Shown here piece by piece: positions 7,060-60,513 of a stretch of 64,000 bases of DNA (the first letter of the stretch is position 1; every line of letters starts with the position of its first letter). The translations under genes and the position numbers were made by a program. The notes beneath the pieces were generated by a model that worked only from the letters and a program-made list of their open reading frames with translations, did not search any database and was not told where the DNA came from. The stretch is from an uncultured bacterium. Lineage in GTDB: Bacteria > Verrucomicrobiota > Kiritimatiellia > RFP12 > UBA1067. The stretch is from positions 1-64,000 of the forward strand of contig CACXRO010000001.1 of assembly GCA_902770045.1 (NCBI GenBank), in the 5' to 3' direction.

Positions 7060-10000
7060 TTAGTAGAAAAGCAGCTCGATTTTCAAGACATCGCCTGGGC
7101 GGATGGCTCTGGTGCGGATGCGCTGCTCGTCTGGCCTGAGCAGCTCGAAACCCCAGTTGTCGACAAGTTCGACCTCCTTGCCCGTGCGCAAAAGCGTGAC
7201 CTTCTCTATCTTGCCCTTGAGCTGCGGCAGAATCGTGTCGCCAAGCGGGCTCTGAAGGAAATGGCAGTAGAGCGACCTGCCCTTCTGCGTATAGACACAG
7301 CCATGCGGCGGCGTAAGGTCGGACTTGCCGCACCCTGCAACAGACTCGCCGTTCACCACATACCAGTCTGCAAGCGCCTTCAGGATATTTACCGAGTCGG
7401 CGGGGATCAGCCCCCTTTCCGTCGGGCCGACGTTCAGGAGCAGGTTCCCGTTCTTGGACACACAGCCGACAAGGCCGGCAATGACCGCCTCGGGTGTCTT
7501 CCAGTTCTCGTCCGTCCTGCAATACCCCCAGCTGTTGTTCATCGTCGCGCAAGTCTCCCAGGGCACTTCACGTCCCTTGACCTGCAGCGGCTGGTTCGGG
7601 ACGCAGATCTCTGGCGTGTAGTAGTCGAAGTCGCGGCAGTTGTCCTTGAAGTACGAGAGGCGGTCGTTGACGATGATGCCGGGCTGGTTGCGGTACACCA
7701 TCTCCAGGATGCCGTCGCGGCCGAAGTAGTCGAGATCGGCTTTCGTCCGGGACGTGTAGTCGAGGAAAAGCAGGTCGAGCTTGCCGTATTCTGTCGTCAG
7801 CTGGTTGATGTGGTTGTAGACGAGATTGGTAAACGACGCATACTGCTCCGGCGTCGGCACGTGCGGCTCCTTCTTCCCGCCCACGATGCACTCCGGCGAC
7901 TCGGTGTCGGCATAGCCGGGGTGCGTCCAATCCGGCAGCGAATGGTACAGGCCGACCTTCAGCCCTTCCGCGCGAAACGCCTCCAGGAACTCGCGCACCG
8001 CATCCTTGCCATACGGCGTGTTGGTGACCTTGTAGTCCGTGAAGTGGCTGTCGAACATGCAGAACCCGTCGTGGTGGCGGCTTGTGAGCACCGCATACTT
8101 CATTCCGGCGGCCTTGGCCAGTTTCGCCCATTCGCGGGGATTGTAGTCCACGGGATTGAAGACCTTCGCGTTCGCCTCGTACTCCCCGGGCGCATACTTG
8201 TCGACGGCATAGCTCCACTCGCCCTTCCCCGGAATCGAGTAGATTCCCCAGTGGATAAACATGCCAAACCGAGCGTCCTGGAACCAAGCGCATTTCCCTG
8301 GATTCTCGCATGACGACGCAAATTCAGATTTCTCCCCTGTCGCTGTTTTCCCGCTGCCACTGACAGGGGATTCGCGGCGGAAGTGGAAGAACTCCGGCTG
8401 CATCTGGGCAAAGGCGCACTTCGGCGTCCAGCGGGCGGAAACCGTCTCGGGGAATTCCTCGCGGCCGTCGGGACCAAGCCGCGAAACTGCCGAGCCTCGC
8501 CATTCCGCCGCAACCGCGAACGCAAGTCCCTCGCGCACGTCGCCGGAGAGGTTGTCGACCATCACCATCATCTCGCGGCCATCCTCGGAAACGCTCGCGA
8601 GAGTCCAGATGCCCGGGGCATCGAGCGCCGCCACCGGCAGCGCATTCGGCGCAATCTGGTTGAACAGGTTCCGCCACATCTCTTGCTTGCGCAGGTTGAG
8701 GAGACCGGAGGAGCGGTTGCCGAGAAGCGACGTCGCAAGCACCGCGACGCACCCGCCGCGCATGTTCTTGGCAACAGTAAGCGACGGCGTGACCTCCTTC
8801 CCGTCAACGCCGTAGAACCGGCTCCAGACCTCGGTTCCGGCGTGCGGCGCGAGCGTCGCGAAGGAGCGCACCGTCCCCTCCGTCCCGGCGCTGAAGATGT
8901 AGAACGCGTTGACGTCATGGCCCCTTCGCGTCAGATCCGCCGCCGGCAGAATCTCCTCGCGCACGACCGGCAGCCGCCCTGCCGCGAGCTTCACGTCCGC
9001 CCCGAGATCGCGCCCGAAGCCGCGCTTCGCGAGCAAAGCTGCCGCGGGCGCATCGACGAGGACGGCACCGGAGAGCAGCTTCGCGATCTCCGCGTCCGAA
9101 AGCGACTCGACGATGTTGCCGGCGAGGACCGCCGGGCCTTCGGCGTCCGCGCGCGTCGTATAGGGCAGGCCGAACTTCGAGAGGACAAACGCCTCGTCCG
9201 CGAGCTGCGCGTCGCGAACGCCGCCAAGCCCGCGTGTGAGCGCCATGGCGTCGGAAGTCCACACGATGCGCACGCCGCGGAGCGCCGCGCGGCGCGTGCG
9301 GTTGAACTCCGCCACCGCCTCGAGCCGCCGCCGGAGCCGGTTGAATTCGTCCGCGTAGCCGGAGTCCTCGAACGGGTCGTCCAGGTACTGGAGGCAGTAG
9401 AGGAGCACGTTCTGGGCGCCGGCGAAGACTGCGCCGGACATCAGCGAGCCCATCTGCGCGGCAGAGGCGAAGAAGCGGTTGTGCGGATACGGGTCCGCCT
9501 CGTAGAAGGTCTCGATGTCCTTCGGCAGCCGCTCAAGGGTATAGAACGTGTGCGCGACCGCGCCAGGCACGTCGGCGGGCGTCGTCTGCGCGCCGTAGAT
9601 CGCGCCGGATGGACGAACTGCGGGGCGGGTATTAGGTCCCGCGAATGCGCGCGCGACGGACTCGACCGACGCGCCGTCCTTGTCTGCGCTGGCACCCGGC
9701 TCGCAGACGCAGATGCGGACGGAGGGGTCCACCTCGTCCACGGCCGCGCGCACCTTGCGCGCGAGGATCGCGAGCGACTCGCGCACCGCGGCGGCGAAAG
9801 CGCGGCGGATCGGCAGGTTCTCGTCGGTGCGGCGCTCGAACGCCGCGGCGATTTCGGCGGCCGTAAGCGGCTTGCCGTAGATCTTCGCGAAGAGCGCAAG
9901 GTGGCGCTCGCAGAAACAGCCGCCGCCGTTGAGCCCCCTTCCCCACGCAAGCGTGTAGTCGTCCTCGACGTTGACCATGCGCGGACGCGCCGCCGCGACG

Positions 10001-10416
10001 ACGGCCTTCACCTTCGCCGCCCAGTCGGCCTGGAACGCGGGGTCGAGCGGGCATTTCTTGTTGTCCTGGCTCTTGCCGCCGAAGGCGTCCTCGACCGGCG
10101 CGAAGCCGGAGACGTAGCGGATGGACGGCGAGCACCACCAGCCCACTTCGACGCCGTCCGGCGCGACCAGCCGCGCAATCTCGCCAATCTCACGCCCCAT
10201 CTCGGCGTAGAGGTTGGTCGCAAACGGCGCATACATGACCTCGTTGAAGCCAGGACCGGCGACGCAGAAGCGGCTGAGCCCCGACTTCGCGCGAATCTCG
10301 CGCAAGTCCCGCGCCGTCTCCTCGACGGCGCCGCGGCGCCACATCACCGGCACGACGGGTTCCATCGCCTCCGCCGCGCAGGCCGCCAGCATCACCATTA
10401 TGGCCAATGTCTTCAT
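7060..10416 (-). CDS. two-module secreted glycosidase with C-terminal GH29 alpha-L-fucosidase
   Basis: A 1118-residue secreted protein with an N-terminal signal peptide (MKTLAIMVMLAACAAEAM). Residues ~20-680 form a large TIM-barrel-like module of a type I cannot assign. It contains GWWCSPSIRYVSGF, VNVEDDYTLAWG and CFCERHLALF, features seen in glycosidase-like proteins of PVC bacteria. Residues ~700-1118 are a GH29 alpha-L-fucosidase: FQDARFGMFIHWGIYS, KYAVLTSRHHDGFCMF, GLYHSLPDWTHPGY and LDLLFLDYTS with the probable catalytic aspartate. The linker (about residues 683-698) is encoded by a palindromic repeat (8333-8370). The start lies 7 nt after a -10 hexamer with no Shine-Dalgarno sequence. 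It is likely involved in removing fucose from host or plant glycans. Confidence 0.85.
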   Translation of the reverse strand: MKTLAIMVMLAACAAEAMEPVVPVMWRRGAVEETARDLREIRAKSGLSRFCVAGPGFNEVMYAPFATNLYAEMGREIGEIARLVAPDGVEVGWWCSPSIRYVSGFAPVEDAFGGKSQDNKKCPLDPAFQADWAAKVKAVVAAARPRMVNVEDDYTLAWGRGLNGGGCFCERHLALFAKIYGKPLTAAEIAAAFERRTDENLPIRRAFAAAVRESLAILARKVRAAVDEVDPSVRICVCEPGASADKDGASVESVARAFAGPNTRPAVRPSGAIYGAQTTPADVPGAVAHTFYTLERLPKDIETFYEADPYPHNRFFASAAQMGSLMSGAVFAGAQNVLLYCLQYLDDPFEDSGYADEFNRLRRRLEAVAEFNRTRRAALRGVRIVWTSDAMALTRGLGGVRDAQLADEAFVLSKFGLPYTTRADAEGPAVLAGNIVESLSDAEIAKLLSGAVLVDAPAAALLAKRGFGRDLGADVKLAAGRLPVVREEILPAADLTRRGHDVNAFYIFSAGTEGTVRSFATLAPHAGTEVWSRFYGVDGKEVTPSLTVAKNMRGGCVAVLATSLLGNRSSGLLNLRKQEMWRNLFNQIAPNALPVAALDAPGIWTLASVSEDGREMMVMVDNLSGDVREGLAFAVAAEWRGSAVSRLGPDGREEFPETVSARWTPKCAFAQMQPEFFHFRRESPVSGSGKTATGEKSEFASSCENPGKCAWFQDARFGMFIHWGIYSIPGKGEWSYAVDKYAPGEYEANAKVFNPVDYNPREWAKLAKAAGMKYAVLTSRHHDGFCMFDSHFTDYKVTNTPYGKDAVREFLEAFRAEGLKVGLYHSLPDWTHPGYADTESPECIVGGKKEPHVPTPEQYASFTNLVYNHINQLTTEYGKLDLLFLDYTSRTKADLDYFGRDGILEMVYRNQPGIIVNDRLSYFKDNCRDFDYYTPEICVPNQPLQVKGREVPWETCATMNNSWGYCRTDENWKTPEAVIAGLVGCVSKNGNLLLNVGPTERGLIPADSVNILKALADWYVVNGESVAGCGKSDLTPPHGCVYTQKGRSLYCHFLQSPLGDTILPQLKGKIEKVTLLRTGKEVELVDNWGFELLRPDEQRIRTRAIRPGDVLKIELLFY
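8333..8370. repeat. palindromic element encoding the linker of the GH29 protein
   Basis: TCCCCTGTC at 8333-8341 is the reverse complement of GACAGGGGA at 8362-8370, with a 20-nt loop. It stays in frame and encodes a Ser/Gly/Thr-rich linker between the two glycosidase modules. A REP-like insertion that became a linker is the likely reading (inference). Confidence 0.55.
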
Positions 10417-10423
10417 GGTGACT

Positions 10424-10432
10424 ATTCTACCA
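10424..10432 (-). promoter_or_regulatory. -10 element 7 nt before the GH29 start
   Basis: Minus strand ATGGTAGAAT-AGTCACC-ATG. The TAGAAT hexamer (10429-10424) has a TGG extension and ends exactly 7 nt before the ATG at 10416. Transcription would start at or next to the start codon, predicting a leaderless mRNA. It is divergent from the promoter at 10468-10478. Confidence 0.6.
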
Positions 10433-10467
10433 TTTCACCCCCGCATCCGTCAACCGCACCCGGCAAA

Positions 10468-10478
10468 TATGGTATAAT
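10468..10478 (+). promoter_or_regulatory. extended -10 promoter 7 nt before the cyclo-ligase GTG
   Basis: Plus strand TATGGTATAAT-CCACACC-GTG. TATAAT at 10473-10478 ends 7 nt before the GTG at 10486, with no Shine-Dalgarno sequence possible. This predicts a leaderless transcript. Confidence 0.7.
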
Positions 10479-10485
10479 CCACACC

Positions 10486-12102
10486 GTGGAAGAGCAGGTA
10501 GAGACAAAGGACGCAATTCGGCGGCGGATGCGCGCGCAGCGCAGGGCGCTTACGCCCGAGGAGCGCGAGCGCGCGTCCAAGGTCATTTGCGCCAAGCTGA
10601 TCTACGACGGCAACATTTCGGTCGCCGTCGACCCGTTTGACGGCGGCGGTGCCGTCGCGGTCTACCTCGCCACGCCGGACGAAATCGACCTTTCGGACTT
10701 CATCCGGGAGATGCTCGACCGCGGCGTCAAGGTCGTCGCGCCGCGATGGAACGGCAAGACCTACAAACTGGTGAGACTAAAGAGTCTTTCCGAAGGCGAC
10801 CTCAGGCGCGGACCGATGGGCATCCTTGAACCAAAGGCATCGAGGATCGTCAAGCCCTCGAAGGTCGCCGCGTGGATCGTCCCCGGGCTCGCCTTCACAA
10901 TCCATGGCGACCGCCTCGGCTACGGCGGCGGCTGGTACGACCGGCTGATGGCCAATGCCAAGGGCTTCAAGATCGGCGTCGCCCACGACTTCCAGATCGT
11001 CGAGAATCTGCCGCACGAACCGCACGACATCCAGCTGATCCGCATAGTGACCGACAATCTCTCAGACAAGCATGTGGAATTCACTGAAACAGCGGACGGC
11101 TTCCGCGCATCAGCATCAATCGGCGCGCAAACGTTGCGCCGCGTTTTGTTCATGTTGTCGCTCCTTGGATTCGGCATGTTCCCTATCATGTTATGGCTCC
11201 CATTTGGTTTCTCGCACGGAACGATTGCGATGCCGATGTGGATATTGATCGCGGCACTTGTTGCAATGACCGCGGCGATTCTCGCCTCCGCCATCACGCT
11301 GTTGTATATCGTAGGCGGACCCGTGACTGCCGAGATCGAGGTCAAGGGGGAGCAAGGCGTCTGCCGCAGACGGTTCCTTGGACTGATTCCTCATCGTGCC
11401 ATCAACTTCCGCTGGAGCCAGTGGTCAAAAGCCATTCCGTATGGACACTACAGCTTATATTCCGCGCCAGGCAAGACAATGCTTTCAATCGTGGAAGGCA
11501 ATGTCGAGCGATGCCTGTTCAGGACATACGAAGACACTGCGGCTGAACTGGCAATCCTCATGAATCTATCACACCATGTCAATCCCGAAGACATGGATGC
11601 ATCTGCAAATGCGATTCTTGCTTCCCTTCCACCCGGGATGCGCATTGTCTGCGACGGCGCGGCGGAGACGATGGAGGTAAAGGTTCATTCGCTTACTGGC
11701 TTGAGCCGCGCAATTCGGCTCTGCTTGATGCTTGGAGTTATTGGAACGCTGCTGGCCACATTCATGGCTCGGTGGCCGATTGTTTTCGTATTATCATTGT
11801 TGCTTCTGTGGGGCGCGATTTCGCTTGTCGTCGTCTATAACGCGCTTTGGACTCTTTTCGGCAGACACCGGCTGACGATTGCTGGCGCGAACTGCGAATA
11901 CGAGGCACGACTCGGCCCCCGCGTTAAGCGGCTAAGCTTTGTGATAAACGGCGACTCGCATGCTACAGCAGAATATCCCAGCAGTTCGCTCTGCGTCACC
12001 GATGCCGGCGGCGACCACCACTACTGCTTCAACGACCTTCCTCCCCGCTGCTACCTTCCGCTGATCGCCTTCGTAAGACACTGCTCTTCCAAGAATCAGT
12101 AG
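10486..12102 (+). CDS. 5-formyltetrahydrofolate cyclo-ligase fused to a C-terminal membrane domain
   Basis: A 538-residue protein. Residues ~1-195 are a 5-formyl-THF cyclo-ligase, which converts 5-formyl-THF to 5,10-methenyl-THF with ATP. It has the N-terminal RRRMRAQRRALTPEE helix and the signature PGLAFTIHGDRLGYGGGWYDR (split here as PGLAF and GYGGGWYDR). Instead of ending, the frame continues for ~340 residues with two pairs of predicted membrane helices (about 215-275 and 395-450) separated by soluble segments. The GTG start is supported by family N-termini and the promoter 7 nt upstream. No stop or frameshift separates the domains. The role of the membrane part is unknown. Confidence 0.82.
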   Translation: MEEQVETKDAIRRRMRAQRRALTPEERERASKVICAKLIYDGNISVAVDPFDGGGAVAVYLATPDEIDLSDFIREMLDRGVKVVAPRWNGKTYKLVRLKSLSEGDLRRGPMGILEPKASRIVKPSKVAAWIVPGLAFTIHGDRLGYGGGWYDRLMANAKGFKIGVAHDFQIVENLPHEPHDIQLIRIVTDNLSDKHVEFTETADGFRASASIGAQTLRRVLFMLSLLGFGMFPIMLWLPFGFSHGTIAMPMWILIAALVAMTAAILASAITLLYIVGGPVTAEIEVKGEQGVCRRRFLGLIPHRAINFRWSQWSKAIPYGHYSLYSAPGKTMLSIVEGNVERCLFRTYEDTAAELAILMNLSHHVNPEDMDASANAILASLPPGMRIVCDGAAETMEVKVHSLTGLSRAIRLCLMLGVIGTLLATFMARWPIVFVLSLLLLWGAISLVVVYNALWTLFGRHRLTIAGANCEYEARLGPRVKRLSFVINGDSHATAEYPSSSLCVTDAGGDHHYCFNDLPPRCYLPLIAFVRHCSSKNQ

Positions 12103-37401: not shown

Positions 37402-39315
37402 CTATATGAGGCGGATTACGGTGCCGGTTCCGTCCGAGCCGCTGTGCGGATCGGAGACGCTGAGGACATTGAGATTAGGATATAGGATTTCGAAGTCGTC
37501 GCCGCCCTCGGCGCTGTTGGGATAGAACCTGCCGCCCTCAAGGATGTTGCGGAAGCCGCAGCGCCCGTCCTCGATTGCCGGCTTGAGATGCAGGACCAGC
37601 GAGGTCTCGTCCGCATAGTCCGACCAGATCTTCACCTCGGCAAAGGCAACGCGCGAGGTATAGGTGATGGTACCGGAAGTGTTCATTGCGAAGAACGTCA
37701 GCGGTGCGCCGGCAACAGTCAACCGTTTGGTAGTAGTGTCAAACGAGTCGGTTGTGCTATCATAGACGAACTGGCCGTCGCGCATTGCGACTGTGTGTAG
37801 GGTATTGCCGGCTGAGATTCCGCTTTTTACCACGTAAGTCACCTTCCCTCCGAAATCGACTCTGAGTTGGCTGCTAGGCCACGAGCTCTCCTTGTGGAGT
37901 ATCATGCCAAAGGACTGGGAGCTTGAACTTTCGCGGCCAGTCCACAGGGCCGCCACTTCTGACATAGTGTCAATGAATGCAACCCTTGCCTCGACCATCG
38001 TATTGCTGGTTGCCGTATAGTCCGTCACGATGTACTGCGTCCCCGATGACTTGAGCAACTTGTCGGCAAGAGAGTCCGAATTCCCAATGGTGAAGAACCG
38101 GGCGCAGGCAACCGATTTGCTCCACGCAAAGGGAAGCACAGCCGAGAAGGAGGTTTCGTCGTTGGCGACTGTGCCCAGGACCGAACAGCTGTCCCAGTGG
38201 GCGGGGTTGGCACCGCCGTCCGCCGCGCCATACGCGACTACCACCTGGTTCGACGCGAATCCAGTAGTTAGCGCAAGCCTGGCCTCCAGCGCGCCATTGC
38301 GCGACACGATGGACGACGAAAGGATCTGCTTGTCCGCCGTCAGCGCCTCCGTAACCGATGCAACGGTCAAATCGCCGACCGTCGGCGACACGACATCGGC
38401 CTCGTTGTAGGTGAATGTTCCAACAGGCGACAAAAAGCTCCCGTCCACGCGGTTGTAAAGCGTCACCGTGTCGTCGTTCTTGACACAGGGGATAAGGTCG
38501 TAGATAAGCGAGGCGGCATCCGTCCGATTTGTCCACACGCGGAAGCTATAGAGGGTCATCTTTCCTCGGCTCAGCGAGGTAGGTGATCCGTCGGAGTTGA
38601 CGGCGAAAAGCCCCATCGGACAGGGCGACGTGAAGGCGTCTTTGCTGACATTTACCGTGTCAGATCCGCCATCCCAGACAAGGGGTACGTTTTGGTTTGT
38701 CTGGTCAATCTGATATCGCCGCTTGTCTGTACCGGTGTAGGTCGCTATTCCGCCTGCCATGTCAAAGCGAAGAGTGGTGCCACCTTGGCACAGGCAGAGG
38801 AAGGCACTGTTGTAGGCCGCTTTTCTGGCGCCCCAGAATCCTACGGTACTGCCAAGGGTAAAGCTAACATCAGCCACAACGCGCCAATCCTGGTTGGGGC
38901 ATTTGTCCCCGAGGATAAAGTACTGCGAGCCGGTTGACTTGAGGAAGGCAAGCTGCTTCTTGAAAGGAGCTTCAACCGAGGCCAGCATAAAGCGATAGAA
39001 TGCGTCGCGGGGGCTGCTCACAGGATAGTTGAAGATCTCTTCACTTTCGCTCGCCGGGACGGTGGCCACGGAATCGATGGTATCCCAGGCGTTCATGTCC
39101 GGGCCTTGGTCAACGGCGCCGCGCACGGCGTAGAGGGAAATTTCGTCCGCGCCCGCCGACACGGCCAAGTCCACCGAGGTCACTACGCCGCCCTCCGAGT
39201 TAACGGCGGCGATCCGCACCGTGCGCGAAGGACCCTGCGCAAGCGTTTCGCACGGCAGCGCCGCCACCGCGATCAGCAGACACGCCAAAACCGATCCTGG
39301 AATTTTCCTGTTCAT
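37402..39315 (-). CDS. secreted protein with two LamG/concanavalin-like repeats
   Basis: A 637-residue secreted protein with a signal peptide (MNRKIPGSVLACLLIAVAA...ETLAQ). Two homologous modules are visible: one from LAFLKSTGSQYFILGD (~132) and one from KLLKSSGTQYIVTDY (~420). Each is a jelly-roll of the LamG/concanavalin type ending in a Leu-Pro/Lys-Pro and gene-specific description line (YDLIPCVKNDD; LHLKPAIEDG). Similar proteins are common in secreted sets of PVC-group bacteria and probably bind carbohydrate or surfaces. ATG 39315 is preceded by AAAGGAG; an in-frame ATG at 39333 would be leaderless but lacks a signal-peptide-like N-terminus. Confidence 0.7.
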   Translation of the reverse strand: MNRKIPGSVLACLLIAVAALPCETLAQGPSRTVRIAAVNSEGGVVTSVDLAVSAGADEISLYAVRGAVDQGPDMNAWDTIDSVATVPASESEEIFNYPVSSPRDAFYRFMLASVEAPFKKQLAFLKSTGSQYFILGDKCPNQDWRVVADVSFTLGSTVGFWGARKAAYNSAFLCLCQGGTTLRFDMAGGIATYTGTDKRRYQIDQTNQNVPLVWDGGSDTVNVSKDAFTSPCPMGLFAVNSDGSPTSLSRGKMTLYSFRVWTNRTDAASLIYDLIPCVKNDDTVTLYNRVDGSFLSPVGTFTYNEADVVSPTVGDLTVASVTEALTADKQILSSSIVSRNGALEARLALTTGFASNQVVVAYGAADGGANPAHWDSCSVLGTVANDETSFSAVLPFAWSKSVACARFFTIGNSDSLADKLLKSSGTQYIVTDYTATSNTMVEARVAFIDTMSEVAALWTGRESSSSQSFGMILHKESSWPSSQLRVDFGGKVTYVVKSGISAGNTLHTVAMRDGQFVYDSTTDSFDTTTKRLTVAGAPLTFFAMNTSGTITYTSRVAFAEVKIWSDYADETSLVLHLKPAIEDGRCGFRNILEGGRFYPNSAEGGDDFEILYPNLNVLSVSDPHSGSDGTGTVIRLI

Positions 39316-39341
39316 CGCCGTCACTCCTTTCATTGGCGCTA

Positions 39342-39353
39342 ATTATACAATAT
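39342..39353 (-). promoter_or_regulatory. -10 promoter of the LamG-like gene
   Basis: Minus strand ATATTGTATAAT, TATAAT at 39347-39342, with a short leader carrying AAAGGAG. Confidence 0.65.
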
Positions 39354-45696: not shown

Positions 45697-48267
45697 TCAT
45701 TGTGCAGAACGAAGCCTTGCCCCGAAAAGGCCAGGGGTGGAATCGGCGTCGTGCTGGGGATTCCAGAACTTCACGTCCCACTTCGCGCCTTTGCGCCCAT
45801 GGTCTCCGAAGATGTTCAGGACATGCGTATATACCGTCACCTCAAGACGCCCGCGCGTCGCCGCGCCGGGAGGAAGATGCCAAGAGTAAGGCGCCCATGC
45901 GCGAGTGCCGAGATCTGCTCCGTTCCAACGCACATGCGCGAATGCGTTGCCGACATCAAGCTCCAGCGCAGTCGCTCCCGCCGGGATTTCGACATTATCG
46001 AGCGTATATGTCATGGCACCGCAAAAACCGGCGAAACCCTGCTCGGCAATAGCACCCGGCGCAAGGGTCGCGGGGATTGGCAAAAGGACTCCGCCCTTCT
46101 CCGCGAACACACCTGCCGCAAATGCCGCCGGCAGGAAGTAGTTGACATCCGGCTCGCCCGAAACAAGACGTAGCACATGCTCGCCCGGCTTCAGCTCAAG
46201 CGGCGCGGTTTCGGCGTAGAGCGGACAGAACTCGAGCGGCAGCGACGCGCAGGGACGCGCCGCGGCAATCGGCTTCCCGTCCAGCTCAAAGCGATACGGC
46301 TCCGCCTTGTGCCGCAGGACCTGCTCGCCTACCGGTTCGCCCTCGCCGTCGTCGACTGGACGCCCCGAGGCCGTCACTGCATACGACATCGCGCACGTCC
46401 GCAACACGAGCCGAATGCCGCCGACTCCTTCCGCTACCGTAAAGCGCGCCGTTCTGTCCGCCGCAAACGGCATGCGGAAAACGGGAACTCGGTTGAACGC
46501 GTAGTCGAGGCGGCCGAGCTTGAGCGGCACGCGCTTCTCCGTAGGTGGTTCCGGCGGCATTTCGCCGGGAGCCAGCACCAGTACGCCGCGCGGCTGGATC
46601 TCGCACGGACGACGGACATCGCCTGAAACGGCGGCAAGCCGACGCGGCCCGTTGCACATGAGGTCGAGCGCGGCAATCGTGCCGTCCGCCCATTCGCGGA
46701 CAACGAGTCCGTCGGCCGGCGTGCCGTCCTGCTCCAGGAAGCGGACGCGCCGCGAGGTGCGCTCCCATGCCCAGAGCCCGGCCTCGGTCATGTTGGTGAA
46801 GACCGTGCCGCTCTTCACGTCGACAAAGCAGTTGTCATTCTTCGCCTCGAAGACGATCGGCAGGTCGGACGTCTCCTCGTCCGAAAGCAAGTCGACCGAA
46901 ATCTGCCGTCCGTCCAGTTCGCGCAACAGCCATTCAATTCGCGGGCTGCTCCATCCCGCGAGACATGCGATTGAACCTTCGCGCCGCGGATAGCGCACTG
47001 CCACCTGATAGACCGAGTCCTGGCGGCGAGCGAGATGCGCCGCGCGCTTCGCGTCGGCAAAGAAGTCCTTGAGCTCGCCATGCCAGGGCTGGCCCGCCAT
47101 CATCGGCGAAAGGTAGCCGTGCTTCTCGACGAGTCCGCGATGATCCATGACCTGCATCGATGAAATGTAGTGGTCAATGCCGTGAAGCGCCGACATCCAC
47201 ACCATCTGGCGCATCCGCGCGGCAGTCATGTCGTTCGGGCCGCAGGCGTAGAGCTCGATGAGTCCGCCACGCTTGTTGCGCGAGGTCGCGTGCTGCGCCG
47301 TCGCGAAGGTGAGCCACTCCGGCTCGTTCTTCTTCATGTCGTAGCCCTTGCCCAAGCTTGCCCGCGAATAGATTTCGTCGATGCCCGGCAGCGACTCGCC
47401 CTTGATTGCCACAAGCGGATCGCCGTTGCAGAGGCACGCGCCCCAGATTCCGTGCTCGTTGATCATGTGGCCGGTGAAGAGAATGTTCATCCTGTCGCAC
47501 CACTCGCGGATCTGGTCGAAGTAGCCGGTGCGGAAGCGCCGCCCCATCAGCTTTGCGTAGACCGACCACACCTCGGCAGAACCACTGCCCGCAAGAAAGC
47601 CCTCGACGTCGGCGCGGAAGTCGCGCCCCGTCTCTGCGCGGTATTCGTCCTCCATGCCGATCCAGCGGCGGAAATGCTTACGACAGCCGGGCTTCAGGGG
47701 AACGGCGACGGGGTGACCTGGCTCGTCGGTGAAAATGCCGAGAATTGTCTTTGACGCGAAGTACTTTGCAAGGCGTTTTTCGTAGACCTCGTGCGTCATC
47801 TTGATGAAGAGCCGAACAGCCTCCGGTTCGCAGACGTTCACCCATCCCTGCGGCGCCATGGTCACTTCCCAGCTGAAGCCGCCCTCCTTCTTCGGATAGA
47901 CCGCCCACTCGCTGTAGCGAAAACGCTCGTCGGCGGCGGGGACGCGTCCCTTGCAGGTACCGCTCGGCCAGTTGTACTCGTCATAGAGCCAGACCTTCAT
48001 GCCGCTTTGCTCGGCCTCGCGGCAGAGCGTCTCGACCGCGTGGAGCCACTCCTCGCCCATGTACTTGTACTGGAGGCCGCTCCTCGCGTAGATGAGGAAC
48101 TGGTCGAAGCCGTCGGCCTTGAGCGCGGCGACCTTGGCGGCGAGTTCGGCGTCGGTGGGACGGCCGGTCACCGCGAGAAACGGCATGACGGGGTTGATTT
48201 CGGCGGACGCGCCAAGCGCGCCAACGGCGACCGCAGCCGCCACGAACAGCATAAGGTAGTTCTTCAT
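45697..48267 (-). CDS. secreted GH106-like glycosidase (rhamnosidase family)
   Basis: An 856-residue secreted enzyme with a signal peptide (MKNYLMLFVAAAVAVGALGASA). An N-terminal barrel shows KVWLYDEYNWPSGTCKG and ILGIFTDEPGH, features of GH106-type enzymes, and later MINEHGIWGAC. A beta-rich C-terminus carries galactose-binding-like modules (e.g. DVGNAFAHVRWNGADLGTRA). GH106 members remove alpha-L-rhamnose; that exact specificity is inferred. The ATG is 7 nt after a TATAAT hexamer, with no Shine-Dalgarno sequence. The sugar regulator lies downstream. Confidence 0.68.
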   Translation of the reverse strand: MKNYLMLFVAAAVAVGALGASAEINPVMPFLAVTGRPTDAELAAKVAALKADGFDQFLIYARSGLQYKYMGEEWLHAVETLCREAEQSGMKVWLYDEYNWPSGTCKGRVPAADERFRYSEWAVYPKKEGGFSWEVTMAPQGWVNVCEPEAVRLFIKMTHEVYEKRLAKYFASKTILGIFTDEPGHPVAVPLKPGCRKHFRRWIGMEDEYRAETGRDFRADVEGFLAGSGSAEVWSVYAKLMGRRFRTGYFDQIREWCDRMNILFTGHMINEHGIWGACLCNGDPLVAIKGESLPGIDEIYSRASLGKGYDMKKNEPEWLTFATAQHATSRNKRGGLIELYACGPNDMTAARMRQMVWMSALHGIDHYISSMQVMDHRGLVEKHGYLSPMMAGQPWHGELKDFFADAKRAAHLARRQDSVYQVAVRYPRREGSIACLAGWSSPRIEWLLRELDGRQISVDLLSDEETSDLPIVFEAKNDNCFVDVKSGTVFTNMTEAGLWAWERTSRRVRFLEQDGTPADGLVVREWADGTIAALDLMCNGPRRLAAVSGDVRRPCEIQPRGVLVLAPGEMPPEPPTEKRVPLKLGRLDYAFNRVPVFRMPFAADRTARFTVAEGVGGIRLVLRTCAMSYAVTASGRPVDDGEGEPVGEQVLRHKAEPYRFELDGKPIAAARPCASLPLEFCPLYAETAPLELKPGEHVLRLVSGEPDVNYFLPAAFAAGVFAEKGGVLLPIPATLAPGAIAEQGFAGFCGAMTYTLDNVEIPAGATALELDVGNAFAHVRWNGADLGTRAWAPYSWHLPPGAATRGRLEVTVYTHVLNIFGDHGRKGAKWDVKFWNPQHDADSTPGLFGARLRSAQ

Positions 48268-48274
48268 GGCGTGA

Positions 48275-48285
48275 ATTATACTATA
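48275..48285 (-). promoter_or_regulatory. -10 promoter 7 nt before the GH106-like start
   Basis: Minus strand ATATAGTATAAT-TCACGCC-ATG, TATAAT at 48280-48275. It predicts a leaderless mRNA. Confidence 0.65.
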
Positions 48286-54351: not shown

Positions 54352-55080
54352 TCAGCTGACGATCGTCCCGACCGCCTCGCCCTTCACCACGCGCTCGAGC
54401 GCCTTCGGGTCGAAGAAGTCGAAGACCACGATCGGGATGTTGTTGTCCATGCACAGCGCGAACGCGGCGGAGTCCATCACCTTCAGCCGCTTCTCGAGCG
54501 CCGTCTCGTACTTGAGCGAGCCGTACTTCTTCGCCTTCGGGTCCTTCTTCGGGTCGGCGGTGTAGATGCCGTCGACCTTCGTCGCCTTGAGGAGCGCGTC
54601 CGCGCCGATCTCGCTCGCCTTGAGCGCGGCGGCGGAGTCGGTGGAGAAGTACGGGTTGCCGGTGCCGCCGCCGAAGATCAGCACGCGGCCCTTCTCGAAG
54701 TGGCGGAGCGCGCGGCGCTGGATGAACGGCTCGGCGAGTTTCGGCATCTCGATCGCGGTCATGACGCGGGTGGGGACGCCGATCGACTCGAGCGCGTTCA
54801 TCATCGCGAGCGCGTTGATGATCGTGGCGAGCATGCCCATCGAGTCGCCGGTCACGCGGTTGACGCCCTTGCCGGCGCCGGTAAGGCCGCGGAAGATGTT
54901 GCCGCCGCCGAGGACGATGCCGACCTCGACGCCGAGCGAGTGGATCTTCTTCACCCGAGCCGCCATGAAGGCGAGCTTCTCGGGGTCGATGCACTCGCCG
55001 GTTTCGCGGTTGCCGAGCACCTCTCCCGAGAGCTTCAGGAGGATGCGCCGGTACTTCAACTTCCTATTCGCCTTTTTCAC
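54352..55080 (-). CDS. pyrH: uridylate kinase
   Basis: PyrH (242 aa) makes UDP from UMP. RRILLKLSGEVLG, GIVLGGGNIFRGLTGAG, GDSMGMLATIINALAMMNAL and ILIFGGGTGNPYFSTDSAA are characteristic. I start it at the GTG at 55080, because the ATG at 55089 lies inside the -10 promoter TGGTAAAAT; from the -10 the GTG is 7 nt downstream, predicting a leaderless message. The N-terminus (VKKANRKLKYRR) then has the usual length. Confidence 0.93.
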   Translation of the reverse strand: MKKANRKLKYRRILLKLSGEVLGNRETGECIDPEKLAFMAARVKKIHSLGVEVGIVLGGGNIFRGLTGAGKGVNRVTGDSMGMLATIINALAMMNALESIGVPTRVMTAIEMPKLAEPFIQRRALRHFEKGRVLIFGGGTGNPYFSTDSAAALKASEIGADALLKATKVDGIYTADPKKDPKAKKYGSLKYETALEKRLKVMDSAAFALCMDNNIPIVVFDFFDPKALERVVKGEAVGTIVS

Positions 55081-55087
55081 GTCGCGC

Positions 55088-55096
55088 ATTTTACCA
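55088..55096 (-). promoter_or_regulatory. -10 promoter overlapping the false pyrH ATG
   Basis: Minus strand ATGGTAAAAT-GCGCGAC-GTG, with TAAAAT at 55093-55088. The ATG at 55089 is part of this hexamer region, so it cannot be in the transcript. Confidence 0.65.
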
Positions 55097-58676: not shown

Positions 58677-59534
58677 TTACGAAACTCCGAATTCGCCGCG
58701 GACGAAGTCGGCGAGCGCGTCCTGCCACGCGGGCGTGCGGTAGCCGAGCAGGTTGAGGACGCTCTTCCTGAGCGCTGAGTTGCGCGGGCGCGGCGCCGGG
58801 CGCGGGAACTCCGCGGTGGTGCAGGGAACGATCTCGCGCTTGAGTCCCAGGAGCCGGAAGAGCTCCTTGGCGAAGCCGCACCAGCTGACCTGCCCTTCGC
58901 AGGTCGCGTGGACTACCCCGCTCACGTCGGGCTTGCCGAGCAGGAAGCGGATGGCGTCCGCGACCGCCTTGGTCGAGGTCGGGTTGCCGACCTGGTCGTC
59001 CACCACCTTGAGCGGATCGCCGTCCTGCGCGCCGAGGCGCGCCATGGTGTGGACGAAGGACGGGCCGCCGGGGCCGTAGAGCCAGGCAATGCGCATGATG
59101 ACCGCCTCGGGCAGGACCATCTGCACCATGCGCTCGCCGGCGAGCTTCGACGCGCCGTAGACGGTGCGCGGGCGCGGGATGTCGGTCTCGCCCCAGGCCC
59201 AGGGCTCGCTCGGCGGCTCGCCGGAGAAGACGTAGTCGGTGGAGATCGCGATCAGCCGCGCGCCGCAGGCGGAGGCGGCGACGGCGACATTGCGCGAGCC
59301 TTCCTCGTTGAGGCGGAAGGCGAGGTCGCGCTTCTCCTCGCAGTCGTCGACGCGGGTCATCGCGGCGCAGTGGACGACGACGTCGGGTTTGGCAGCGGCG
59401 GCCTTGGCGGTGAAGGCATCGGCGTCGAGGATGTCCCATTCCGGCAGGTCGGCGACGACGATTTCGTGGTCGGCAAGCTCATGCTGGAGCGTGCGCCCGA
59501 GCATTCCCTTCCCGCCGGTGACGAGGATCTTCAC
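58677..59534 (-). CDS. rfbD: dTDP-4-dehydrorhamnose reductase
   Basis: A 285-residue reductase making dTDP-L-rhamnose. ILVTGGKGMLGRTLQHELAD, then DVVVHCAAMTRVDDCEEKRD, ISTDYVFSGE and YGASKLAGE are the RmlD motifs, and MRIAWLYGPGG is conserved. Start GTG 59534 overlaps the YihY stop (GTGA). The other rml genes are not in the window. With galE it points to surface polysaccharide precursors. Confidence 0.9.
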   Translation of the reverse strand: MKILVTGGKGMLGRTLQHELADHEIVVADLPEWDILDADAFTAKAAAAKPDVVVHCAAMTRVDDCEEKRDLAFRLNEEGSRNVAVAASACGARLIAISTDYVFSGEPPSEPWAWGETDIPRPRTVYGASKLAGERMVQMVLPEAVIMRIAWLYGPGGPSFVHTMARLGAQDGDPLKVVDDQVGNPTSTKAVADAIRFLLGKPDVSGVVHATCEGQVSWCGFAKELFRLLGLKREIVPCTTAEFPRPAPRPRNSALRKSVLNLLGYRTPAWQDALADFVRGEFGVS

Positions 59535-60496
59535 TTGCCGGCCTCCTCGGACGAGCGCGCGAACTCGCGCACCATGTTCGCGCCCAGCAGCACGATCTGC
59601 CAGCTCATGTAGAGCCAGGCGAGGACGATCGGCATGAAGGCGAAGGAGCCGTAGAGCGCCGAGGACTTGGCGATGCCGACCTGGGCGACGGCGCAGGCCT
59701 TCATCCAGCAGCCGAAGAGGATCGCGGTCGCCGCGCCGCCGCGGACGGCAGCGCGGAACGGCACGCGGCAGTTGGGCATGAACCAGAAGATGAAGGCGAA
59801 GTTCAAGGTGGCGGTGACGAAGGCGATGGCGAACTTGACCGCCCAGGAGTCGATGAGCCAGAGGAGCGTGTCGCCGACCCACTTGGTGTAGTCGGTGACG
59901 CCGGTGGTGGCGGTGATGACGCTCTTCACCGCGCCCATGATCGGGAAGGACATCGCGACCGCCGCAAGGACGGGCATGACGATCATGACGAGCAGGTAGA
60001 CCCAGGCGCGCTTCCACACCGGGCGCGGCTTGGGCACCCCCCAGATGCGGTTGAAGCTCATCTCCACCATGCCGAGCGAGGAGATGACCGTCCAGAGCAG
60101 GAGACCGAAGCCAATCCAGCCGAAGGTGGCGACGTCGAACGCGTCGATGCGCTCGAAGAGCGCGTTGGAAATGGTCCTGGCCTGGGTGGCGAACTCCTCG
60201 GCGGCGATGCGCTTCTTCTGGACGTCCTCCTCGCTCGAGAACGCGCCAGCGGCGGCGGCGAGCTCGTCGTCCTGCCCCTTCTCGATGTTGGTGATGAGCG
60301 CGTCGATGCGCTCGTTGATGTGGCTGCGGGCGTAGTCGTCGACCCCGACCGCCTTGGCGACGACAAGGATGCAGCAGAGGATGGGCATCATCGCCAGCAT
60401 CGAGAAGTAGGTGAGGCCGGCGGCGTGCATCGAACAATGGTTGTCGAGGAAGCCCTTGACGACTCCGCGGCACCAGGTCTTGATCTTGTTCATCAT
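59531..60496 (-). CDS. YihY/BrkB-family inner-membrane protein
   Basis: A 321-residue membrane protein of the YihY family: AAGLTYFSMLAMMPILCCIL near the start, WKRAWVYLLVMIVMPVLAAV, then LYGSFAFMPIVLAWLYMSWQ and LLGANMVREFARSS at the end. Members were once called ribonuclease BN, but act as membrane proteins of unclear role. It has an unusually long first periplasmic segment (~60-120). The start has adjacent ATGs, the first 8 nt after TATAAT. Confidence 0.87.
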   Translation of the reverse strand: MMNKIKTWCRGVVKGFLDNHCSMHAAGLTYFSMLAMMPILCCILVVAKAVGVDDYARSHINERIDALITNIEKGQDDELAAAAGAFSSEEDVQKKRIAAEEFATQARTISNALFERIDAFDVATFGWIGFGLLLWTVISSLGMVEMSFNRIWGVPKPRPVWKRAWVYLLVMIVMPVLAAVAMSFPIMGAVKSVITATTGVTDYTKWVGDTLLWLIDSWAVKFAIAFVTATLNFAFIFWFMPNCRVPFRAAVRGGAATAILFGCWMKACAVAQVGIAKSSALYGSFAFMPIVLAWLYMSWQIVLLGANMVREFARSSEEAGK

Positions 60497-60504
60497 GGCT
60501 GTGT

Positions 60505-60513
60505 ATTATACCA
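60505..60513 (-). promoter_or_regulatory. -10 promoter of the YihY-rfbD-fabG-galE operon
   Basis: Minus strand TTTGGTATAAT-ACACAGCC-ATG, TATAAT at 60510-60505, within the 19 nt between pyrE and YihY. It predicts a near-leaderless message. Confidence 0.65.

Follow-up and report, generated by a model that had tools for sequence, protein, structure and literature searches.

Leaderless transcripts of mycobacteria, which belong to a different phylum, reportedly use an AUG or GUG at the 5′ end as the start codon. Leaderless genes lying beside a -10 element are already known from Actinobacteria, Deinococcus-Thermus and Akkermansia; the arrangement described here is unusually strict, and what is new is the lineage, a long full-consensus motif at 63% GC and the near-invariant N7-GTG geometry of pyrH. 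The -10-motif genes of Deinococcus-Thermus carry their box about 6–7 bp upstream of the ORF and give leaderless mRNA, with no pathway bias reported in the accessible text of the source (PMC12340547). In the accessible text of that paper their box is most often TACACT and serves about 30% of ORFs (PMC12340547), whereas here it is the long, near-consensus TGGTATAATACRC, found at about 12% of called genes. Zheng et al. (2011) described TA-like leaderless genes, whose -10 adjoins the start codon and may or may not be preceded by TG, and which share a single genome with Shine-Dalgarno genes. According to the accessible part of that paper, the box degenerates to TAnnnT in high-GC groups, in contrast to the full TATAAT and conserved flanks of the present case, where the window has 63% GC, and Verrucomicrobiota is not among the names in its group table and list (PMC3160421). 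For Akkermansia muciniphila, probably of the same phylum as our source, the accessible text of a Cappable-seq study places 10% of mapped transcription start sites at annotated starts, with YR at -1/+1, and reports a -35 element (PMC4782308), which is not enriched here. If that phylum placement is right, the phylum already has an experimental precedent. GeneMarkS-2 predicted leaderless genes in 21.6% of bacterial species, as reported in the accessible text of PMC9581028. A non-exhaustive literature search found no report of leaderless pyrH, or of leaderless genes in this lineage. With the present case, the leaderless bacteria would gain a lineage that is uncultured, probably lives in the rumen and has a long promoter motif with almost no variation.

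The window, the whole 64-kb stretch of DNA that was analysed, contains the genes and promoter elements listed in Table 1. A sequence-only reading of it had placed -10 hexamers exactly 7 nt before the ATG at 10416 (-) and the GTG at 10486 (+), and the coordinates agree. Its claim of N7 or N8 spacing at 48267, 55080 and 60496 was borne out as N7-ATG, N7-GTG and N8-ATG, and a sixth site, absent from that reading, lies at 39333 (-). It had also described these promoters as extended -10 elements without a -35. This holds in part: TGn is present at four of the five sites and a -35 is not generally enriched, but the 48267 site lacks TGn, and at the 10416 site a TTGACG stands 18 nt from the -10, so the GH29 promoter is not -35-less. 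Only 1.5% of nearby random placements reach the five of six matches of this TTGACG. At the 48267 gene, a TTGTCC lies 17 nt upstream. The extended -10s of the divergent pair at 10416 and 10486 are only 37 bp apart (10433–10469), so both -35 regions fall on the same DNA (10448–10455), and simultaneous occupation of the GH29 and cyclo-ligase promoters would therefore be unlikely. Taken alone, the window gave a modest excess of close starts, its 13 TATAAT sites having four ATGs at 6–9 nt against 1.7 expected. An Rfam scan of the window returned 0 matches.

Table 1. Predicted leaderless genes of the window and their putative promoter elements
Feature	Position	Strand	Order of elements	Basis
GH29 alpha-L-fucosidase gene, predicted leaderless; ATG at 10414–10416, 7 nt past TAGAAT	7060..10416	-	TGG-TAGAAT-N7-ATG	Pfam PF01120, E 3.3e-85
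7-nt spacer AGTCACC, -10 to ATG of GH29 gene	10417..10423	-		identical in RUG10963
Extended -10 TGG-TAGAAT, GH29 gene	10424..10432	-		sequence
-35-like TTGACG, 18 nt from TAGAAT, GH29 promoter	10448..10453	-		5/6 matches
Extended -10 TGG-TATAAT, cyclo-ligase gene	10470..10478	+		identical in RUG10963; TGGCATAAT in RUG14537, TGGTAAAAT in G029
7-nt spacer CCACACC, -10 to GTG of cyclo-ligase gene	10479..10485	+		sequence
5-formyltetrahydrofolate cyclo-ligase fusion gene, GTG start, predicted leaderless	10486..12102	+	TGG-TATAAT-N7-GTG	TIGR02727, E 7.5e-40, from residue 8
Predicted leaderless gene, 643 aa, no Pfam/NCBIfam match; TATAAT at 39342–39347	37402..39333	-	TTG-TATAAT-N8-ATG	
Predicted leaderless gene, 856 aa, no Pfam/NCBIfam match; TATAAT at 48275–48280 after TAG, TGn missing	45697..48267	-	TAG-TATAAT-N7-ATG	
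pyrH, UMP kinase, GTG start, predicted leaderless; TGG-TAAAAT at 55088–55096	54352..55080	-	TGG-TAAAAT-N7-GTG	TIGR02075, E 7.5e-93
BrkB/YihY-family membrane protein gene, predicted leaderless; TGG-TATAAT at 60505–60513	59531..60496	-	TGG-TATAAT-N8-ATG	

Across the genome the placing of -10 boxes near starts is real and overwhelming. The 2.27-Mb draft holds 386 occurrences of TGNTATAAT against 11 of the reversed pattern; an ATG follows 6–9 nt downstream in 155 of the 386 (reversed control, 1) and a GTG in 23 (reversed control, 0). Rates were taken from an unbiased second sample of 424,888 bp, composed of the window and contigs C29–C48 and chosen by contig number rather than by hits, because the stretches of the first sample had partly been picked from hit positions. 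There, 35 of 75 sites have an ATG at 6–9 nt, with 6.2 expected and a peak at 7. The histogram of -10-to-start distances proposed by the sequence-only reading, run on the same sample, gives 4, 14, 12 and 5 ATGs at 6, 7, 8 and 9 nt, against 1.54 per position at 15–60 nt; the leaderless gene class with N7/N8 spacing that it had postulated is thus upheld genome-wide by the 155 close ATGs and the peak at 7–8 nt. A weight matrix for the motif found 123 sites in this sample, and 38 are predicted to be leaderless, with an ATG or GTG at 6–9 nt whose frame is that of a called gene or stays open to the end. These make up about 12% of the 326 called genes, a rate that depends on gene calls made with a simple home-made codon model and not with a standard caller. 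The rates also rest on 816 kb of the 2.27 Mb.

We favour, with a probability of roughly 0.9, a single dominant extended -10 promoter that feeds both leaderless and Shine-Dalgarno leadered genes, RNA starting about 7–8 nt past the -10. The promoter would be of one sigma-70 type, made up of an AT tract, the extended -10 and a conserved ACRC discriminator, usually with no recognisable -35, and RNA polymerase would start on a purine that follows a pyrimidine. In roughly a third of promoters this purine would be the first base of the ATG or GTG, or lie within 2 nt of it. The 5′ end of the mRNA would then coincide, or nearly coincide, with the start codon, and translation would proceed without a Shine-Dalgarno sequence, presumably by ribosomes that recognise a 5′-terminal AUG or GUG. 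For other genes the same promoter would typically stand 20–45 nt upstream and be combined with a Shine-Dalgarno sequence. The exact transcription start, the leader of 0–1 nt and the mode of ribosome entry are what we infer from the DNA letters. In the source genome a pyrimidine occupies position -1 in 25 of 29 N7-ATG genes and in 11 of 11 N6-ATG genes.

The motif consensus, AWTW-TGG-TATAAT-ACRC, is common to 80 ATG-proximal and 47 other sites, among which a -35 box showed no enrichment over offset controls. TGn directly precedes TATAAT in 82 of 101 sites of the first, partly hit-picked sample. A Shine-Dalgarno-like word was found within 50 nt at 27 of the 47 leadered sites versus 8 of the 80 ATG-proximal ones, where the -10 and its spacer occupy the Shine-Dalgarno position. 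Since the box sits where a ribosome-binding site would be, it might be read as an S1-type or other non-Shine-Dalgarno ribosome-binding element and not as a promoter. That reading has a next to negligible probability: in a larger sample of the source genome (816 kb of the 2.27 Mb), 10 of 12 tRNA genes, none of which is translated, have the same motif in the 150 nt ahead of them, and it also precedes leadered genes that have a separate Shine-Dalgarno sequence. Two of the tRNA genes share one promoter, and in four cases 14 nt separate the end of the -10 from the mature tRNA; the placement before tRNA genes shows that the motif is a promoter. The tie between the extended -10 and the leaderless class drawn by the sequence-only reading was not supported. 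The motif, discriminator included, is shared by leadered genes and tRNA genes, 85 of the 123 weight-matrix sites are not leaderless, and leaderless genes therefore have no monopoly on the motif.

The alignment of the housekeeping sigma factor to RpoD_Cterm is complete. Its regions 2.4, 3.0 and 4.2, which we take to be those for the extended -10 and for the -35, have a canonical appearance, and region 4.2 is intact; loss of sigma region 4 as the cause of the absent -35 was rejected on this account. A 16S rRNA devoid of an anti-Shine-Dalgarno sequence was rejected too: the source genome itself gave no 16S match, and CCTCCTTT stands in all five relatives for which the 3′ end of the 16S could be read. 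The discriminator that follows the -10 varies by lineage, being ACRC in the source genus (g1) and often GGCGG-like in family f3 (G014, G019 and others), and the DNA-binding regions of sigma look alike despite this difference.

The boxes could be genuine -10 elements and the true starts could still lie further downstream, behind ordinary leaders, the near ATG or GTG being incidental. In-frame starts do occur further down at many sites. The 816-kb sample contains 82 ATGs at 6–9 nt: a called gene begins at 60 of them, the frames of 8 reach the end of the piece, and no called gene begins at the other 14, at least one of which belongs to a tRNA promoter (L034). We consider an incidental near start very unlikely, given the sharp ATG peak at 7–8 nt, the retention of N7-GTG at pyrH across g1 (see below), the scarcity of Shine-Dalgarno-like words at ATG-proximal sites, and domain matches that begin only 7 residues past the GTG in the cyclo-ligase and 9 in the UMP kinase. 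Promoters stand before genes in any case, which makes the control for gene opening, with 73 of 127 ATGs at 15–60 nt at the start of a called gene, a weak one. A start logo built from coding-model starts, with no knowledge of the motif, brought no gain, since those start calls are too imprecise for it to be informative. Under the favoured model of one promoter with a fixed RNA start, promoter spacing could be used to call start codons and correct gene annotations in such MAGs. In the window and the loci L009–L028 and L031–L050, 22 close ATGs after a strict -10 have no called gene; 11 of them open frames of 5–57 aa, possibly leaderless small ORFs, some of which may be truncated where a piece ends.

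The strongest evidence comes from pyrH, an essential gene whose start geometry is almost unchanged throughout genus g1. We searched 114 genomes of the family, obtained a match in 101 and read 99 upstream sequences from 98 genomes, one of which has two copies. The count omits fragments that lack the N-terminus (G447, G475, G030 and the second pieces of G469, G432, G021 and G023) and a weak second match of G227; G472, cut by a contig end, is kept among the 55 sequences of g1. In 50 of these 55 a -10 is followed by N7 and GTG, and the other five comprise N6-GTG, N8-GTG, N9-ATG, one leadered ATG and the contig-cut sequence. The 50 N7 spacers include 39 distinct 7-mers, with C or T at position 7 in all 50 and a purine at position 5 in 49; the sequences are related by descent and do not amount to 50 independent events. 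The spacer letters thus vary while the length and final pyrimidine are kept, which fits the prediction that pyrH transcription would start at the G of the GTG. Elsewhere in the family, g10 has eight N7-GTG, one N6-GTG and four without a close -10; g12 has two N8-GTG, g199 one N7-GTG, g204 and g206 one N6-GTG each, and g208 one N8-GTG and two N7-ATG. One g13 sequence has a weak N5-TTG, which we discounted, and one is without; no -10 adjacent to the start was found in the 21 sequences of g11, g14, g15, g198, g200–g203, g205 and g209.

Across the family (f1), GTG is the start in 67 of the 70 pyrH genes with a -10 at 6–9 nt. For the 28 without a close -10, one of them contig-cut, the apparent start judged by eye, with no systematic calling of start codons, is ATG in 9, most of the rest being TTG or unclear. 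It is conceivable, though doubtful, that GUG serves at once as transcription start and start codon, and that G is kept over A since initiation with GTP would let the nucleotide pool set the synthesis of UMP kinase. The leaderless geometry would, if so, make the pyrH start codon a metabolic sensor. With pyrH, a connection between the initiating nucleotide and the choice of start codon can be put to the test.

At the divergent pair, both promoters are kept letter for letter in RUG10963. The cyclo-ligase gene of RUG14537 reads TGGCATAAT-N7-GTG, with similarity stopping just upstream of the -10 and the DNA beyond unrelated. Its counterparts have TGGTAAAAT-N7-GTG in G029, TGGTATAAT-N7-ATG in G022, N6 in G006, N7 with CATAAT in G007 and N6 with TAAAAT in G010; no match to this promoter was found in the other genus members examined. 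Among the cyclo-ligase relatives the -10 is TATAAT, CATAAT or TAAAAT, and the spacing stays at 6–7 nt. Comparison of relatives thus supports a spacing that is conserved at pyrH and the cyclo-ligase while the spacer letters change. At BrkB the spacing is not conserved, with N6, N7, N8 and N9 in some relatives and no match in others. Only 15 sites, at 91% identity, could be aligned in a footprint comparison with G012, a number too small for a verdict. At its C-terminal end the cyclo-ligase protein carries about 345 additional residues (window about 11056–12102, +) without a Pfam or NCBIfam match, and full-length relatives with 39–40% identity are present in several genus members.

In a survey of 387 genomes of the phylum, counts of the strict motif span 3 to 198 per genome within the family. 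They run from 43 to 198 in g1 (nine genomes sampled, the source included), from 89 to 99 in g10, and reach 157 in g15. Counts are moderate in family f3 (14–45) and in one f6 genome (62), and close to zero, or no higher than in controls, in many neighbours, such as the f1 genera g11 and g13 and families f2 and f5. In the f44/g71 genomes, presumed to be Akkermansia, counts range from 0 to 28, several having 11–28 matches against 0–3 in controls. Other families of the order were represented by samples of 20–60 kb, with too few sites to derive promoters. Leaderless pyrH in some genera and leadered pyrH in others of one family, together with this spread of motif counts, would therefore make the group a natural system for the gain and loss of leaderless initiation.

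The fixed spacing might reflect copy history and not function if the motif were part of a dispersed repeat or mobile element that carries a -10 together with an ATG. The 19-mer TGGTATAATTCACGCGATG does occur at five places in the 816-kb sample, inside a larger conserved block, and heptamer repeats adjoin some promoters. Most sites, however, differ both upstream and downstream, the varied pyrH spacers have the same length, and the motif also stands before tRNA genes; sequence variety largely refutes this explanation, which we regard as exceedingly unlikely.

The five copies of TGGTATAATTCACGCGATG, at L019 (-) 17458, L020 5687, L026 19117, and L027 570 and 10145, belong to a repeated 5′ cassette in which a pre-promoter block precedes the 19-mer and about 20 codons resembling a signal peptide follow it. 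The cassette is fused to differing downstream sequences, in frames of 412, 43, 38, 144 and 396 aa whose first codons are common and which then diverge. Other repeats upstream of some promoters are CACCGTAATCTC, with 8 copies, all intergenic, and GCGGCAGTTTGCGCGG-like elements, with 10 copies, 9 of them intergenic; the loci include L015, L016, L018, L032, L039, L044, L046, L049 and others. Tandem heptamers such as CCACGAA in many cases end directly at the AT tract of a promoter (L010, L013, L017, L022, L024, L034, L046, L047 and L048). Twelve of 19 heptamer arrays are intergenic, and 10 of the 19 have a -10 within 60 nt downstream, against 0 for a reversed-heptamer control.
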